Translations under genes and position numbers: made by a program | In this document: piece after piece, positions 16,300 through 24,676 of the stretch | Layout: every line of letters begins with the position of its first letter | How positions within the stretch are numbered: position 1 is the stretch's first letter | The notes under the pieces: generated by a model | Seen by the model: the letters and a program-made list of their open reading frames with translations, nothing else | Databases searched by the model: none | What the model was told of the DNA's origin: nothing | Assembly: GCF_904846035.1 (NCBI RefSeq) | Contig: NZ_CAJGYT010000001.1 | Location: 2,232,001-2,296,000, forward strand | Length of the DNA stretch: 64,000 nucleotides | From: Psychrobacter aestuarii | GTDB taxonomy: Bacteria > Pseudomonadota > Gammaproteobacteria > Pseudomonadales > Moraxellaceae | Direction: 5' to 3'

Positions 16300-18045
16300 T
16301 TACGGCTGCGTGGTAGTTTTGGTCAATGTGCCGACCGCCGCATCAGCATTGCCATCGTTGTTGATATCGACCGCTTGTTCTGGGTCAAAGGACACTTCAG
16401 TCACAGGCGTGTCTGATTTAATAGCGATGGCTTCAGGTACGCTGACCACGCGCGCAGAGCTTGCCGCTTTGACAGCTTCGGCGGCTTTGGTTTCGCTACT
16501 GGTTGCCGCGGTGTGCAGATTTGCCAAGTTGGTGTACTGCGGCGTTGGGATAGCGGTTGGGATGTCAAGGTTGGCACCGCCGCCGAGCGCTTGGTACAGC
16601 TCGATTTGGCTGATGAGTTTTTGCAGTTCTAAATCCAAAATACCTTGCTGGGTCGCAAACAGCGAGCGCTGCGCGTCAAGCACGTCCAAGTAGTTGTCCA
16701 GACCCGCTTTAAAGCGCGCGTTGGCAATGTTAAAGGTCTGCTCGTAGTTGTCCTGCAAGCGGTACTGCGCCTTTAAGCGCTCATCGAGCGTACTGCGGGT
16801 GGCCAGCACATCAGAGACTTCTCTAAATGCCGATTGGATGGCTTTTTCATAGCTGCTGAGCGCTTGTTTTTGTTCAATCTGCGCCACTTCATAGTTGGCG
16901 TCCAAACGCCCTGCATCAAAAATCGGAATGCTCAGGTTCGGGCCAAACGACCAGCCGACCGCATTGCTGCTGACCAAATCACTCAAACTGCTGCTGCTGA
17001 TACCCACACTGCTGGCAAGACTGATGGTGGGGTAGTAGGCCGCGCGCGCCGCTTCGATATTCGCGCCCGCTGCTTTTAGGCTGTATTCCGCTTGCAAGAT
17101 ATCAGGACGATAGCGCAGCAGCTCACTTGGCAGACCGGCATTAAAGATGCTTTCGCTGGCGATGTTGCTGACTTGCGGCGCAGGCAACAGCTCATCTGGA
17201 ATCGGCGTACCTACAAGAAATTGCAAGGCGTTACGCGCGGTCAATACCGTGCTTTGGGCGCTCAGTACCGAAAGCTTGGCGTTATCAAGCGCTGCGCTGG
17301 CTTGTAGTGAAGGCAGCTTGGCATCGACGCCCGCTTTAAAGCGCTCATTGGCAATGAACAATGACTGCTCACGACTTTTGACGGTCGCTTGCGCCAGTTG
17401 CAGCTGGGCTGCGCCATAGCTGAGATTGGCGTAGCTTTGCGCGATATTACTGATAAGGCTGATTTGGGTCGCGTCTTTGGCTGCTGTGGTCGCCAAAAAG
17501 TTCTGTAGCGCTTGGTCTTTTAGACTGGCGATTCTGCCCCAAAAGTCCAGCTCATAGCTTGCCAGACCCAGATTGACATTATAGTTGCTGTTACTGCTTG
17601 AGTTTTGACCTTGACGTGTATAGCCTGCCGTACCGTTGATGGTCGGCAAGTCATTGATGTCCGTGATTTGATACTGCGCGCGCGCTTTTTGGATGGCGAG
17701 ACGGGCATTTTCAAAGTCTTTGTTGTTATCAAGACCCATGGCAATCAGCGCCTTGAGACGCTCATCGCTATAAAAGCTCTGCCAGCGGGTGGCGGCAATA
17801 CTCGGCTGCGCGCCTGTGCTGACGGTTTTGGCGTCATAGGCTTCATACGTCTGATTGATAGGCACGTTTGGCTGTGCCAATACAGGCGTATTATTGGCCT
17901 TTGGAATGGTGTTACAAGCACTGATACTGGCGGCAAGCGCGGTCAGTGCAAGGATGCGGCTTGGGCGTACCAAAGACGGACGTAGGCGAGCAACCGCAAC
18001 GCTTGACTGAACGGCGCGCGGCTGAAAAAAGGAACGAAAACTCAT
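16300..18045 (-). CDS. RND efflux outer-membrane channel (OprM/AdeK type)
   Basis: A 581-residue outer-membrane factor of the TolC/OprM lipoprotein class, the exit duct of the tripartite pump encoded here. The N-terminal signal ends in the lipobox ISAC, so the Cys (about residue 44) would be acylated. Two repeats of the OMF fold follow: TDINDLPTINGTAGYTRQGQ near the first beta-strand pair and AARAAYYPTISLASSVGISS in the second, with long alpha-helical stretches (LAIQKARAQYQ, LDAQRSLFATQQGILDLELQKLISQIELYQALGGG). The C-terminal ~95 residues after the last helix are low complexity and longer than usual. The start codon overlaps the stop of the RND transporter gene (ATGA), so the two are translationally coupled. 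Confidence 0.93.
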   Translation of the reverse strand: MSFRSFFQPRAVQSSVAVARLRPSLVRPSRILALTALAASISACNTIPKANNTPVLAQPNVPINQTYEAYDAKTVSTGAQPSIAATRWQSFYSDERLKALIAMGLDNNKDFENARLAIQKARAQYQITDINDLPTINGTAGYTRQGQNSSSNSNYNVNLGLASYELDFWGRIASLKDQALQNFLATTAAKDATQISLISNIAQSYANLSYGAAQLQLAQATVKSREQSLFIANERFKAGVDAKLPSLQASAALDNAKLSVLSAQSTVLTARNALQFLVGTPIPDELLPAPQVSNIASESIFNAGLPSELLRYRPDILQAEYSLKAAGANIEAARAAYYPTISLASSVGISSSSLSDLVSSNAVGWSFGPNLSIPIFDAGRLDANYEVAQIEQKQALSSYEKAIQSAFREVSDVLATRSTLDERLKAQYRLQDNYEQTFNIANARFKAGLDNYLDVLDAQRSLFATQQGILDLELQKLISQIELYQALGGGANLDIPTAIPTPQYTNLANLHTAATSSETKAAEAVKAASSARVVSVPEAIAIKSDTPVTEVSFDPEQAVDINNDGNADAAVGTLTKTTTQP

Positions 18046-21000
18046 CGTGTGTTGTCTCCAAAACTGGCTGGCTGATAAGCGTCGTCGTCTTTTGGCGGCT
18101 TATCATAATGATGCGGGAAGATGCCCCGCACCCAAACATAGAACATAGGAATAAAGAAAATACCCAGCAAGGTGGCACTAATCACCCCACCAAGGACACT
18201 GGTACCGATGGCGTTTTGGCTGCCTGAGCCTGCGCCGTTTGCCAAGAATAATGGCACAACCCCAATACCAAAGGCAAGCGAGGTCATGATGATGGGACGC
18301 AGGCGCTGGCGTGCGGCGGTCATCACAGCCTCTTTAAGACTGTAGCCTTCTTCTTGGTGGTCTTTGGCAAATTCGATAATCAAAATCGCGTTTTTGGCGG
18401 ACAGACCAACGACCGTCAATAGACCCACCTGCAAGTAGATGTCATTGGCAAAGTCGCGCAGCCACGTAAACACCGCAGCCCCCAAGACCCCAAGCGGAAC
18501 GACCAACAGTACCGAGAAGGGGATAGACCAGCTCTCGTACAGCGCGGCTAGGCATAAGAACACCACCAAAATCGAGATGGCGTACAGCATCGGCGCTTGT
18601 GCGCCTGACTTTTGCTCTTCTAATGACAGACCTGTCCACTCATAGCCGACGCCCTCAGGCAATTTGGCAATCATGTCTTCCATCGCGGTCATGGCATCGC
18701 CACTACTGAGACCAGGCGCGGCCTCACCTTGGATATTCATCGATGACAAGCTGTTATAACGGGTCAAGCGCGGTGACGCCATCTCCCACTCACTGCTTGA
18801 GAACGCATCGAACGAAATCATATTGCCAACATCGTTACGTACGTACCATTTGCCCAAGTCTTCTGGGTTGGTACGGCTGCTTGGCTCACCTTGCACGTAC
18901 ACGCGCTTGATGCGACCACGGTCGATAAAGTCATTGATATAGCCTGAACCCCACGCCGTTGAAATCACACTATTAATGGTCGATAAAGACAAGCCATAAG
19001 CGGCGGCTTGTTCTTGATTGACATTGACTTTGAGCTGCGGCGCGTCTTCTTGACCGTTTGGACGGACTTGGGTCACTTGGTCGCTTTGCGCCGCCATGCC
19101 TAAGAGCATGTTACGGGCTTCTAATAGACCATCGTGCCCGATATTGCCCACATCTTGGAGCATCAAATCAAAGCCGCTGGCATTACCCAGCTCCGTGATG
19201 GCGGGCGGTACTAGGGCAAAGACTTGCGCTTCATTCAGCTGCGTGACAAAGTAGCCCATCGCGCGTCCTGCAATCGCTTGCGCGGTGTTGTCATCGCCAG
19301 TACGCGCGTCCCAGTCTTTTAGACGGACGAAGGCAAGACCCATGTTTTGCCCTTGACCAGCAAAGCTAAAGCCTGCGATGGTAAAGACTGAGGCGACGTT
19401 GTCTTTTTCTTGCGTATGGTAATAAGTGTCGATTTTATCCAGCACTTCTTGCGTGTCGTTAATCGGCGCACCTGCGGGCAGCTGCACGATGGTCAGCATG
19501 ATGCCTTGGTCTTCTTCGGGTAAAAATGAGCCAGGAATGCGCAAAAATATCAGCGCCATGATACCAATGATGGCGGCATAGCCAATCAGGTAAAGCCACT
19601 TAAAGCGAAAGCTCTTGCCAACAAAGCGTTCGTACGAGCTGCTCGCCTTATAAAAACTGCGGTTAAACCAGCCAAAAAAGCCTTTTTGCGTGTCGATATT
19701 GCTCTTGTCATGGCTTTTGCTGCGTTTTAGCAAAGTGGCACAAAGCGCAGGGGTAAAGACAAGCGCCACCGCGGCTGAGAGCACCATACTGGTAATCAAG
19801 GTAACGGCAAACTGACGATAAATCACACCCGTCGAGCCACCAAAGAACGCCATCGGTACGAATACCGCCGATAGAATAAGCGCGATACCGATAACGACTT
19901 TACTAATCTCACCCATCGATTGAATGGTGGCGTCTTTGACTGAGATGGTCGAATCTTCTTCCAAGATACGCTCGACGTTTTCCACCACCACGATGGCATC
20001 ATCGACCAGTAGACCAATGGACAGTACCATCGCAAACATGGTCAACACGTTGATACTAAAGCCTGCGATATACAGTACCGCAAACGTACCGAGCAAGACC
20101 ACAGGAACGGCAAGGGTAGGGATGATGGTCGCGCGCCAGTTTTGCAAAAATATGAACATCACGATAAAGACCAGCACAATCGCTTCAATCAGGGTTTTCA
20201 CGACCTGCTCGATAGACAGCTTGACAAAGGGCGTGGTGTCATAAGGAACGACTGAGCTTAGACCTGCTGGGAAGTTTTGCTCCAGCTCCGCCATACGCGC
20301 TTCGACCGCTTCACGGGTTTCTAGCGCGTTGGCACCTGCGGCAAGGCTGATACCCATACCCGCGGCTTGTTTGCCGTTATATAGCGAGACCACGCTGTAG
20401 TTTTCACTGCCAATCTCGACATCAGCGACATCGCCCAAGCGTACCTGCGCGCCTGTACTGTCGGTTTTTAATAAAATATTTTCAAACTCTTCAGGCGTTT
20501 GCATATAGCTTTGTAGCGTTACTGTCGCACTGATGACCTGACGGTCGGTGTCGGCAGGCGCTTGCCCGAGCTGACCTGCTGAGACTTGCGCGTTTTGTGC
20601 CGATACCGCGCTGACCACGTCAGAGGGCATCAGGCTATAACCACGCAGGCGCTCAGGGTCGAGCCAGATACGCATGGCGTACGCTGAACCAAAGACCTGT
20701 ACGTTACCCACGCCTTCGACACGGCTGATTTGGTCCACCACGTTGGAGTTGATGTAATCGGCGATGTCGTTACGGTCCATGCTGCCATCAGAGATGAATG
20801 CTTGTACCATCAAAAAGCTGCTGGAGGACTTATTAACATTGACCCCTTGGCGCTGTACTGATTCTGGCAATGAGGTCATTGCCGCTTGCAATTTATTTTG
20901 CACCTGTACCTGCGCGGTATCAGGATCGGTACCGTTCTCAAAAGTCAGCGTCGTTGAGGCGCTGCCGTTTGAAGCACTCGAGGAGGACATATACATCAGA

Positions 21001-21221
21001 CCATCGAGCCCTTTCATGCGCTGCTCGATAATCTGTACCACCGAGTTTTCAACCGTTTGCGCATTGGCACCTGGATAGGCGGCGCTCACCGTGATGGTCG
21101 GCGGCGCGATGCGCGGGTACTGCTCAATCGGTAGGTTGAGTACCGATATCACCCCGATGAGCATGACCAAAATCGCCATGACCCATGCAAAAATAGGGCG
21201 ATGAATAAAAAAACGTGACAT
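18042..21221 (-). CDS. RND multidrug efflux transporter (MexB/AdeJ type)
   Basis: A 1059-residue hydrophobe/amphiphile efflux (HAE1) pump. It starts MSRFFIHRPIFAWVMAILVM, the classical first transmembrane helix, and has the expected 12 helices with two large periplasmic loops. The proton-relay pair is in LLVDDAIVVVENV (Asp407/Asp408 by count), and the partner Lys lies in GLSAKNAILIIEFAKD. The G-loop region is GQLGQAPADTDRQV. The family exports drugs, detergents, bile-salt-like amphiphiles and solvents. It sits between the adaptor (36 bp upstream) and the outer-membrane factor (4-bp overlap), forming a complete adaptor-pump-channel operon as in AdeIJK and MexAB-OprM. No local regulator gene is present. 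Confidence 0.95.
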   Translation of the reverse strand: MSRFFIHRPIFAWVMAILVMLIGVISVLNLPIEQYPRIAPPTITVSAAYPGANAQTVENSVVQIIEQRMKGLDGLMYMSSSSASNGSASTTLTFENGTDPDTAQVQVQNKLQAAMTSLPESVQRQGVNVNKSSSSFLMVQAFISDGSMDRNDIADYINSNVVDQISRVEGVGNVQVFGSAYAMRIWLDPERLRGYSLMPSDVVSAVSAQNAQVSAGQLGQAPADTDRQVISATVTLQSYMQTPEEFENILLKTDSTGAQVRLGDVADVEIGSENYSVVSLYNGKQAAGMGISLAAGANALETREAVEARMAELEQNFPAGLSSVVPYDTTPFVKLSIEQVVKTLIEAIVLVFIVMFIFLQNWRATIIPTLAVPVVLLGTFAVLYIAGFSINVLTMFAMVLSIGLLVDDAIVVVENVERILEEDSTISVKDATIQSMGEISKVVIGIALILSAVFVPMAFFGGSTGVIYRQFAVTLITSMVLSAAVALVFTPALCATLLKRSKSHDKSNIDTQKGFFGWFNRSFYKASSSYERFVGKSFRFKWLYLIGYAAIIGIMALIFLRIPGSFLPEEDQGIMLTIVQLPAGAPINDTQEVLDKIDTYYHTQEKDNVASVFTIAGFSFAGQGQNMGLAFVRLKDWDARTGDDNTAQAIAGRAMGYFVTQLNEAQVFALVPPAITELGNASGFDLMLQDVGNIGHDGLLEARNMLLGMAAQSDQVTQVRPNGQEDAPQLKVNVNQEQAAAYGLSLSTINSVISTAWGSGYINDFIDRGRIKRVYVQGEPSSRTNPEDLGKWYVRNDVGNMISFDAFSSSEWEMASPRLTRYNSLSSMNIQGEAAPGLSSGDAMTAMEDMIAKLPEGVGYEWTGLSLEEQKSGAQAPMLYAISILVVFLCLAALYESWSIPFSVLLVVPLGVLGAAVFTWLRDFANDIYLQVGLLTVVGLSAKNAILIIEFAKDHQEEGYSLKEAVMTAARQRLRPIIMTSLAFGIGVVPLFLANGAGSGSQNAIGTSVLGGVISATLLGIFFIPMFYVWVRGIFPHHYDKPPKDDDAYQPASFGDNTR

Positions 21222-21257: not shown

Positions 21258-22652
21258 TTATTTCGCGCCTGCGGTGTCGTTATCGTCTTGTTGCATGGCC
21301 TTTTGCGCTTGCTGTGGCGTCTTGGCATTGGGCGCACCTGCACTTGCAGCACTGGCACTCGGCGCGCCTGCACTGCCGCTGTCCTCTTGATACGGCGCTA
21401 CTTTTACCTCTTGCTCAGGCTTGACCTTAGCGCCACCGATGATGACCACTTGCTCACCTGCTTTTAGACCGTCGGTGACAATCCATTTGCCCTCATAAGT
21501 GCCATTGACCGTGACGGGACGTATTTGGATTTTGTTGTTGCTGTCCACCACATACACTTGGGTTTCACCTTTTGGTGAGCGGATGATGCCGCTTTGCGGT
21601 ATCAAAGCGGCGTTGGTCAAGACGCTTTGGGTCAAGCGCGCGGTCACGTACATACCAGGCAGCAAGACGTTACCGTTATTGGGGAATACTGCGCGTAGGG
21701 TCACTGCGCCTGTAGACTCATCGACTCTGGCTTCAGAGAGCGCCAGCTGCCCACGAACGGGGTAGACGCTGCCGTCTTCGAGTACCAGCTCAACGCTATT
21801 CACACCTGCTTGGGCATCGCCTTTTGATATTTGCTCACGCAGCTTGAGCAAATCAGAGGACGATTGACTGATATCGACATAAATAGGGTCAAGACGAGAG
21901 ATGGTCACCAACGGGTCGGCTTGGCTTGCGCTGACCAGCGTGCCTGCGGTTACATCTGAGCGACCCGTACGCCCTGTCAATGGTGCGCGCACGATGGTGC
22001 GGTTTAAATCCAGAGAGCTGGCGCTCAAGGTCGATTGGGCGCTTTCGATACCTGCTTTGGCGCTCTCGATACCCGCTTGCGCTTGACCTGCAGCGGCGCG
22101 CGCACTGGCTATTGCTGCCTGTGCGGTGCGTACTGCGGTTTTTGCCTGCTCATACTGCTGGTCACTGATGGCATCAATGGCGACCAGTTTTTCCATACGT
22201 GCTAAGTCATCTTGTGCTTGTGCCAACTGCGCTTGCTGGCTTGCGATTTCAGCCTGTGCGTTGGCTCTGTTCGCCAGCGCCGTCTGATAGTTGGCACGCG
22301 CTTGCTGTACCGCCGCCTCACCATTGGCAATAGAGGCAGTGTAGTTGTCAGGGTTGATGCGGTATAGCGGCTGGTTTTTCTTCACCACGCTGCCTTCGCG
22401 GAACAACACCTCATCAATAATGCCACTGACCTGCGGACGCACATCGGCGGTTTGATAGGCGGCGGTGCGCCCAGAAAAAGTCTGTACTTGAGGCACAGTC
22501 TCAAAACTGACAGTCTGGACGTTGACCACCGCAGGCGGCATTTGCTGCGCGGCAGCGGCGGCCTCTGCGTCGTCGTCTTTACTGCTACAGCCGACCAATA
22601 CCGCGCCAGAAAGTACAGATGCTATTACAAGCGCAAGATAAGAGTGCTTCAT
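21258..22652 (-). CDS. RND efflux periplasmic adaptor (MexA/AdeI type)
   Basis: A 464-residue lipoprotein membrane-fusion protein. The ATG at 22650-22652 gives MKHSYLALVIASVLSGAVLVGC, a signal peptide with lipobox LVGC, and is preceded by GAGGACATTG. A much longer frame (to 22811) lacks conserved sequence and would run the signal peptide into the middle of the protein. Then follow the lipoyl half VRPQVSGIIDEVLFREGS, an Ala/Gln-rich helical hairpin (about 105-200), the second half IVRAPLTGRTGRSDVTAGTL and the beta-barrel (DPLVTISRLDPIYVDISQSS), all as in AdeI/MexA. The C-terminal 40 residues are low complexity. It is the first gene of the operon, with a leader of about 165 nt from the MerR-like promoter. 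Confidence 0.94.
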   Translation of the reverse strand: MKHSYLALVIASVLSGAVLVGCSSKDDDAEAAAAAQQMPPAVVNVQTVSFETVPQVQTFSGRTAAYQTADVRPQVSGIIDEVLFREGSVVKKNQPLYRINPDNYTASIANGEAAVQQARANYQTALANRANAQAEIASQQAQLAQAQDDLARMEKLVAIDAISDQQYEQAKTAVRTAQAAIASARAAAGQAQAGIESAKAGIESAQSTLSASSLDLNRTIVRAPLTGRTGRSDVTAGTLVSASQADPLVTISRLDPIYVDISQSSSDLLKLREQISKGDAQAGVNSVELVLEDGSVYPVRGQLALSEARVDESTGAVTLRAVFPNNGNVLLPGMYVTARLTQSVLTNAALIPQSGIIRSPKGETQVYVVDSNNKIQIRPVTVNGTYEGKWIVTDGLKAGEQVVIIGGAKVKPEQEVKVAPYQEDSGSAGAPSASAASAGAPNAKTPQQAQKAMQQDDNDTAGAK

Positions 22653-22823
22653 CAATGTCCTCGGTAATCTTATAAAATAAATAGTGATGGTCTGTTCAAT
22701 TTGTAGTTTGAGGTCACATCGCAGAGTGGGTGCAAAAAAATTGCTCGGCGTTGCCCAATACGGCAATCGACATAAAGCGTACGACACCCATGCCCAACAA
22801 AAATGCATCAAAGAAAAACGATT

Positions 22824-22855
22824 ATTATAAACTATAGGGTATACCCCACAGTCAA
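22824..22855 (-). promoter_or_regulatory. MerR-family-type promoter/operator of the RND operon
   Basis: On the minus strand a -35 TTGACT (22855-22850) and a perfect -10 TATAAT (22829-22824) are separated by 20 bp, longer than the normal 17. The spacer is filled by a 22-bp dyad at 22831-22852. Its halves on the plus strand are ACTATAGGGTA and TACCCCACAGT, matching at 18 of 22 positions, with a 10-bp perfect core GGGTATACCC. The dyad begins inside the -35 hexamer and ends one base before the -10. This is the layout MerR-family activators use to untwist overlong promoters. The predicted start is near 22817, about 165 nt before the adaptor ATG. Confidence 0.75.
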
Positions 22856-23424: not shown

Positions 23425-24447
23425 TTATACCAAGCGCGCGCTGGCAAGCTCGGTCAGTTGATACAAGCCTTGGCGATACTGGTTGTCAGGCAGTGTCTCT
23501 AGCGCCTGTTGTGCCAGTGCCGTCTCTTCGAGTGCCCGCGTACGGCAATATTCTAGCGCGCCTGATTCACGTACCAAGGCAATCAGCGCCGCCGCGTCAT
23601 CGGTCTTGCCCGTTTGCACCGCGATACGCAGTTTATCAAAGCCTACTGTGTCATTATCTTTGAGCAGCGCTAACGCCTTAATCGTTGGCAAGGTAGGCTT
23701 GCCTTCTGCCAAATCATCGCCCAAGTTTTTGCCCATCACTTCGCTATCGCCGCTGTAGTCGAGCACGTCATCAATGATTTGAAAAGCATTGCCAAAATGC
23801 TGCCCAAAATCGGCAAGCGCATCCAAATGCTCAGTTTTGTCTTGCAAAATCGCCGCGCCTTGCGTCGCCATCATAAACAGACGCGAGGTCTTGCCATCAA
23901 TAATGGCAAGATAATCCGCCTCAGTCGCGCTGGGGTTGTGCTGATGCTGGAGCTGCAATACTTCGCCCTCAGCGATGTCACACGTACCGTCTGAAAACAG
24001 CTGCAACAGCGGCAGGCTTTGAAAGCCGACCAGCAAATTAAACGCCCGTGCAATCAGATAATCCCCGACCAGTACCGCGGTGGCATTGTCCCACGTGGCA
24101 TTGGCAGTTGGCTTACCGCGGCGTTGACCCGACTCATCAATCACATCATCATGCACCAAGGTCGCAGTGTGCAGCATCTCGGTGATGGCCGCCAGATGCA
24201 TCGCCTCTTTGGACGGCACATCGTTTAGCATACGCGAGCAGAGCAAGGTGATTAGTGGGCGCATGCGCTTGCCGCCTGCATTAATCACATGCTGCGAGAC
24301 ACTCATCACCAGTTGCACTTTTGAGTTTAGGCTGCCGAACACCTGCTTGTCCATAATCTCAAAATCATCAGCAACGATGCTTTGGATATCGGCATAGCTT
24401 AAAGACGTTGGCGCGGTCGATGGGCGAGATAATGGGGTACTGGTCAT
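23425..24447 (-). CDS. ispB: Octaprenyl (polyprenyl) diphosphate synthase
   Basis: A 340-residue trans-prenyltransferase that elongates farnesyl diphosphate into the side chain of ubiquinone. The two aspartate-rich motifs are LVHDDVIDESGQRRG (first) and IIDDVLDYSGD (second); the residues just before the first motif (EMLHTATL) are small and non-blocking, consistent with a long product. NAGGKRMRP near residue 60 binds the isopentenyl diphosphate. The ATG at 24445-24447 is chosen because the upstream 30 codons (to 24537) are hydrophobic and non-conserved, although the Shine-Dalgarno is weak. It is divergent from rplU, the same ispB/rplU/rpmA neighbourhood seen in E. coli. It feeds the quinone pool used by the Nuo complex encoded further on. 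Confidence 0.92.
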   Translation of the reverse strand: MTSTPLSRPSTAPTSLSYADIQSIVADDFEIMDKQVFGSLNSKVQLVMSVSQHVINAGGKRMRPLITLLCSRMLNDVPSKEAMHLAAITEMLHTATLVHDDVIDESGQRRGKPTANATWDNATAVLVGDYLIARAFNLLVGFQSLPLLQLFSDGTCDIAEGEVLQLQHQHNPSATEADYLAIIDGKTSRLFMMATQGAAILQDKTEHLDALADFGQHFGNAFQIIDDVLDYSGDSEVMGKNLGDDLAEGKPTLPTIKALALLKDNDTVGFDKLRIAVQTGKTDDAAALIALVRESGALEYCRTRALEETALAQQALETLPDNQYRQGLYQLTELASARLV

Positions 24448-24676
24448 AAATATATCGTCACAATCAAAAAAATGGCAAAAAGAGAAAAAGGAATACAATC
24501 GGTAGGGCGGCATACAGCCAAATAAAGGCAGCCCCAACAGGCGCTCATAATAGCATAGCCCTTATCCAAGCGCGGCGCGAATCTGGCATACGCACACAAA
24601 ATACCGATAAAGCTGAGCCCAAGCGCGGTAACGGGATGTTTTTACTGTTGTTTTCGGCAAAAAGCGGGCTGCTGGC

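Follow-up and report, generated by a model that had tools for sequence, protein, structure and literature searches.

A 64,000-nucleotide stretch of the Psychrobacter aestuarii genome (the window) contains the operon of an AdeIJK/AcrAB-type efflux pump that, with high probability, is transcribed from a MerR-family activator promoter bound by an orphan MerR protein of 143 amino acids encoded outside the window. From the observed sequence, geometry and conservation of the promoter element, and from its co-occurrence with the merR gene, we infer binding, DNA distortion, activation and inducibility along the following lines. With a 20-bp spacer, sigma-70 RNA polymerase would face two promoter hexamers that are too distant from each other and wrongly phased, and basal transcription would be low. 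A dimer of the orphan MerR protein would occupy the 22-bp dyad in the spacer, probably keeping the promoter silent or weak until a signal is received, whereupon the DNA would be kinked and untwisted, both hexamers could be engaged, and the three pump genes would be switched on. MerR-family activators are known to render such promoters usable through kinking and untwisting of the spacer (PMC9909328).

Pump operon and promoter architecture

The operon lies on the minus strand and begins with the gene for an RND periplasmic adaptor, a lipoprotein of the AdeI/MexA/AcrA type (21258..22652), whose ATG start at 22652 was chosen by its ribosome-binding site, GAGGA, and its lipoprotein signal. The second and third genes, on the same strand, encode an RND permease of the AdeJ/AcrB type and the HAE-1 multidrug class (18042..21221; TIGR00915 at 1615 bits and NF000282 at 1540 bits, both above cut-off) and an outer membrane factor of the NodT family (16300..18045; TIGR01845 above cut-off), for which AdeK is the top model at 471 bits, a score under the equivalog cut-off. 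An AcrB/AdeJ-type permease, an adaptor and an outer membrane factor are thus combined in a single operon, as is required of HAE-1 multidrug RND systems, and, judged from its sequence, the pump is a chromosomal AdeIJK/AcrAB-type multidrug transporter and not one of the CusA/CzcA metal type. The conserved upstream neighbour, an ispB-like polyprenyl diphosphate synthase gene (23425..24537, minus strand), served for synteny and for the tree described below.

The minus strand from 22855 to 22824 reads TTGACT GTGGGGTATACCCTATAGTT TATAAT, a 32-bp element in which the -35 hexamer (22850..22855) and the -10 hexamer (22824..22829) are separated by exactly 20 bp. The proposed MerR-family operator is a 22-bp dyad with the halves ACTGTGGGGTA and TACCCTATAGT (22831..22852, minus strand), which begins at the fourth base of the -35 hexamer, stops one base short of the -10 hexamer, pairs at 9 of 11 positions (18 of 22 bases) and has its centre 8 bp from the -35 hexamer. 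The initial annotation had described this gap and this dyad correctly in all details, and had recognized in them the architecture of a MerR-type promoter. That reading agrees with the published rule for MerR-family sites, in which the centre lies 8 bp from the -35 hexamer for 22-bp sites and 7 bp for 21-bp sites (PMC5045206), and with the ZntR site, ACTCTGGAGTCGACTCCAGAGT, which is placed within a 20-bp spacer (PMC1526738) and whose consensus matches the dyad at 15 of 22 bases. With both a spacer in the 19- to 20-bp range and a spacer palindrome at the required centre, as expected of MerR-regulated promoters, the element at 22855-22824 is real and has the architecture of a MerR-type promoter, a known mechanism that would here serve a new regulator-target pair.

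No other -35/-10 pair in the 64-kb window combines a 19- to 20-bp spacer with a dyad of at least 9 of 11 pairs at the MerR-type centre, and the same promoter-plus-dyad search returned a mean of 0.017 matches in shuffled windows. A plain sigma-70 scan, which covered spacings of 16 to 18 bp, did not pick up the promoter at 22855-22824. With the usual distance of about 7 bp from the -10 hexamer, transcription would be expected to start at 22816..22818 (minus strand), and a start near 22817 would give the adaptor mRNA a 5' untranslated region of about 165 nt.

Conservation of the element within the genus

Our survey covered 348 Moraxellaceae genomes, 105 from Psychrobacter and 243 from other genera. 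The element is present in 94 of the 105 Psychrobacter genomes, in a single copy in each, and a control search with the reversed pattern had no match among the same 105. The refutation test laid down in the initial annotation, namely, whether close relatives keep the dyad and its spacing, was passed, as the spacing is 20 bp in all 94 site-bearing genomes. Conservation over the Moraxellaceae at large, which had also been envisaged, was not borne out: the site is limited to Psychrobacter and was found in none of the 243 other genomes, even when 3 mismatches were allowed. An exact-pattern search through 84,980 species genomes, a set from which close kin of the window's genome are perhaps omitted, likewise gave no match outside Psychrobacter, and every one of the 69 named records that contain the exact site pattern belongs to this genus. 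As a phylogenetic footprint, the 32-bp element is confined to Psychrobacter.

Among 55 non-redundant genus sequences, the site carries 1.75 bits per base, compared with 0.36 and 0.43 in the two 60-bp flanks. The -35 hexamer is invariant, each position of the -10 hexamer is conserved at a frequency of at least 0.98, and there is little or no variation in the inner GGGT and CCC or in the outer TAGT, while conservation within the site is lowest at the dyad centre and at a few arm positions. The symmetry of the frequency matrix is maximal at the dyad centre given above (0.75, compared with a mean of 0.27); across species, 6 to 11 of the 11 pairs are symmetric, and the dyad is imperfect in many, which counts against the model. 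The imperfect symmetry of 9 of 11 pairs in the window might suggest a chance dyad on an ordinary weak promoter, an explanation that we consider extremely improbable in view of the rarity of such matches in shuffled windows and of the contrast in information content with the flanks. Because promoter and dyad are conserved across the genus, they are not a product of chance.

Palindromes between -35 and -10 hexamers are also common as repressor sites. The dyad might accordingly be the operator of a TetR, MarR or similar repressor that overlaps the promoter by happenstance, and a TetR-type protein, AdeN, does control adeIJK in Acinetobacter (PMC8678518). Yet a repressor needs no 20-bp spacer, which is nevertheless kept in every site-bearing genome; the dyad centre follows the MerR rule; and the presence of the site follows that of a MerR gene, also in a pair of sister genomes, G077 and G078, described below. 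We therefore regard a repressor operator as quite unlikely and the dyad as a probable MerR-family operator. The genome of the window holds no second copy of the dyad at up to 3 mismatches, the merR gene being included in that search. A loose promoter pattern was also run against this genome and was discarded, as its matches were about as numerous as those of the reversed control.

An orphan MerR gene outside the window

Searching the whole 2.8-Mb genome with the Pfam models MerR_1 and MerR revealed a sole MerR-family gene, located at C1:980330-980761 and encoding 143 amino acids. The only MerR helix-turn-helix matches in the genome are at C1:980357, outside the window, in keeping with the earlier statements that the window contains no merR and that the regulator would be encoded elsewhere. 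The gene is 1.27 Mb away from the pump, in the order ftsK-trxB-aat-merR-rimI-tuf, where ftsK, trxB and tuf were named from sequence and aat and the GNAT acetyltransferase gene (rimI) by a separate annotation search. Its product scores above the cut-offs of PF13411, PF00376 and PF09278. The AlphaFold model (pLDDT 86) has a long helix at residues 86-127 and a disordered tail, and its top structure matches are MerR-family folds; the modeled fold is the one usual for short MerR proteins, with an N-terminal winged helix-turn-helix and a dimerisation helix. The initial annotation had proposed a search for MerR genes with a similar dyad in their own promoter, but inspection by eye of the 47-bp gap between aat and merR revealed none, which is a further point against the model. 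The same situation is published for zntR, which is not autoregulated and lies unlinked to its target (PMC1526738).

It also weighs against the model that some genomes encode additional MerR paralogues whose DNA-binding domains are similar. Second copies of the subfamily (58-61% identity) are found at unrelated loci in eight genomes (L193, L194, L195, L196, L197, L198, L199, L200, L201), and these paralogues have no tail cysteine at position 136/137. Convincing MerR-type promoters were not found beside them in the eight genomes, where the search yielded one weak dyad, in L199. At the aat locus, genomes without merR (L223-L232, L234) show aat followed by a gene for arginyl-tRNA-protein transferase (ATE/bpt) and then, where the stretch extends far enough, by rimI. 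In merR-bearing genomes, merR occupies the place of bpt after aat (compare L207:4471-6310), and G078, which carries merR elsewhere, also has no bpt beside aat.

Co-occurrence of the MerR gene and the site

Orthologues of the orphan MerR protein, at 54-82% identity, occur in exactly the 94 site-bearing genomes. The 11 site-less Psychrobacter genomes returned either no match or unrelated MerR proteins at E values of about 1e-9 or weaker, and the 243 other Moraxellaceae genomes have neither orthologue nor site, save for one 34% hit in another genus. The pump itself is kept in the rplU-ispB-pump context, as far as contigs reach, in 10 of the 11 site-less genomes, where its promoter region is unrelated; in the remaining one (G074), the search recovered no more than a distant adaptor. 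The site-less clade has another conserved element upstream of the pump, consisting of the inverted arms TTTACAAAT...ATTTGTAAA with a span of 58-59 bp (L208:8287-8345, L209:4216-4274, L210:4081-4139, L211:8890-8948, L212:7966-8024 and L214:7413-7470). In L214, both arms are altered together, to GTTACAAAT...ATTTGTAAC. A different regulator may use this element as its operator.

We built a tree from the ispB, adaptor and permease sequences, using 48 site-bearing rows and those 8 site-less genomes that had enough sequence. It requires two state changes, one between the main clade and the site-less clade and one for G078, which falls inside the site-less clade. Since only these two changes are needed, the agreement in 94 of 94 and 11 of 11 genomes represents two independent co-changes and not 105. 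G078 has both the site and merR, the latter not at aat. In its sister G077, the flanks of the gene align at 92% and 87%, and about 120 bp stand in place of the roughly 680 bp that include merR; G077 has kept the pump, with no merR between the flanking genes and no site in the promoter. Gene and site have thus changed together twice, which is good but not large evidence.

The promoter could also be of the MerR type and yet be activated by another protein, with the orphan MerR merely sharing its phyletic distribution. The distribution does reduce to two co-changes, merR is unlinked to the pump, and other genes gained on those two branches would share the same 94/11 profile. On the other hand, the orphan is the single detectable MerR-family gene in the window's genome, and its orthologue is the sole match to the query in many sister genomes, so that we consider another activator very unlikely. 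By its sequence and distribution, the orphan MerR protein is the likely cognate regulator of the pump promoter.

Candidate signals

The regulator scores below the cut-offs of all of the characterized subfamilies compared: MerR, 67 of 151 bits; ZntR, 55 of 168; CueR, 46 of 147; SoxR, 36 of 117, with no C-terminal CxxCxC...C iron-sulphur motif; and NF041849 (NmlR/AdhR), 31 of 175. Membership in the ZntR, CueR or SoxR group was rejected, as the scores are far under the cut-offs and the ligand or Fe-S cysteines are missing. His49 and Cys52 are invariant in all 45 orthologues and paralogues, and no other cysteine is conserved in all 45. These residues form a His49-Pro-x-Cys52 motif in a three-residue insertion in the wing. 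None of the aligned MerR-family proteins of solved structure has the insertion (L001:1600-1640, residues 47-52). All 30 aat-locus orthologues aligned carry a cysteine in the tail, in most cases at 136/137.

A metal sensor, with the pump induced by zinc, cadmium, copper or mercury, would fit the promoter model and bears on the signal alone. The best family scores are those for mercury MerR and ZntR, well below the cut-offs as they are; the site resembles that of ZntR; and the protein's tail reads HPCHPICP, in the window's genome only. Against this, nothing in the orphan protein corresponds to the helix cysteine of Tn501 MerR, two cysteines after residue 120 are found in 2 of the 30 aat-locus orthologues, some distant members (G087, G078) have none there, and the pump belongs to the HAE-1 multidrug class rather than to CusA/CzcA. 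Induction by one of these metals is thus improbable, and a soft-metal sensor is unlikely because the metal-ligand cysteines are absent and the tail pair is restricted to those two orthologues. The metal inducer suggested in the initial annotation has accordingly become less likely, the ligand cysteines of MerR, ZntR and CueR all being missing.

A thiol or small-molecule signal appears at least as likely as a soft metal. Candidates are a small hydrophobic ligand and a signal of the thiol-reactive or redox type that would act on Cys52 and perhaps also on Cys136/137 in the tail; a thiol switch would be the most specific alternative to a soft metal, with a non-covalent ligand as the other. More tentatively, we raise the possibility that the protein represents a distinct, genus-restricted MerR subfamily that serves the AdeIJK-type pump alone and responds to thiols or electrophiles. 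The switch would rely on Cys52, which might pair with Cys136/137 from the other subunit, and the subfamily would have been gained or lost together with its operator.

Comparison with known systems

MerR-family control of RND pumps is already known from BrlR, GolS and SoxR. The novelty appears to lie in the combination of this pump type with a MerR protein that is genus-specific and unlinked to it, and our literature searches found no report of this regulator or promoter in Psychrobacter. The model predicts an inducible pump in Psychrobacter, for which the promoter would be a ready reporter in the hunt for the signal, and an unlinked orphan regulator would offer a testable one-regulator, one-target system.

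The closest parallel in promoter layout is ZntR/zntA of Escherichia coli, in which a 22-bp dyad with ACT...AGT ends, starting within the -35 hexamer, lies in a 20-bp spacer and the regulator is unlinked and not autoregulated (PMC1526738). However, zntA encodes a P-type ATPase instead of a multidrug RND operon, the inner half-site differs, with 15 of 22 bases in common, and the orphan protein has no metal-ligand cysteines. BrlR of Pseudomonas aeruginosa is, like the putative regulator described here, a MerR-family activator of a multidrug RND pump, MexAB-OprM (PMC9909328), but it has about 270 amino acids and a ligand domain and senses c-di-GMP, while the 143-residue orphan has no such domain. 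In Salmonella, the RND operon gesABC (mdsABC) is under the control of the MerR-family protein GolS (PMC10333786), a gold sensor, in contrast to the orphan protein with its missing ligand cysteines. SoxR, another MerR-family regulator, acts on mexGHI-opmD in response to a redox signal (PMC10333786); the orphan protein lacks its Fe-S cysteine cluster and has its invariant cysteine in the DNA-binding domain.

NmlR and AdhR are, like the orphan, short MerR proteins with one absolutely conserved cysteine (PMC4776306), and chains of HiNmlR give the top TM-scores by query length among the matches listed, up to 0.66. From the match ranges, the orphan's cysteine appears to be at a position other than that of NmlR Cys54 or AdhR Cys52, and the target differs. 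Finally, the adeIJK operon of Acinetobacter encodes a pump of the orthologous type in the same family, but AdeN, its regulator, is of the TetR type (PMC8678518), and the Psychrobacter promoter type is confined to its own genus. If our model is correct, control of this pump has been rewired within the Moraxellaceae, with the TetR-type AdeN in Acinetobacter and a MerR-type activator in Psychrobacter.
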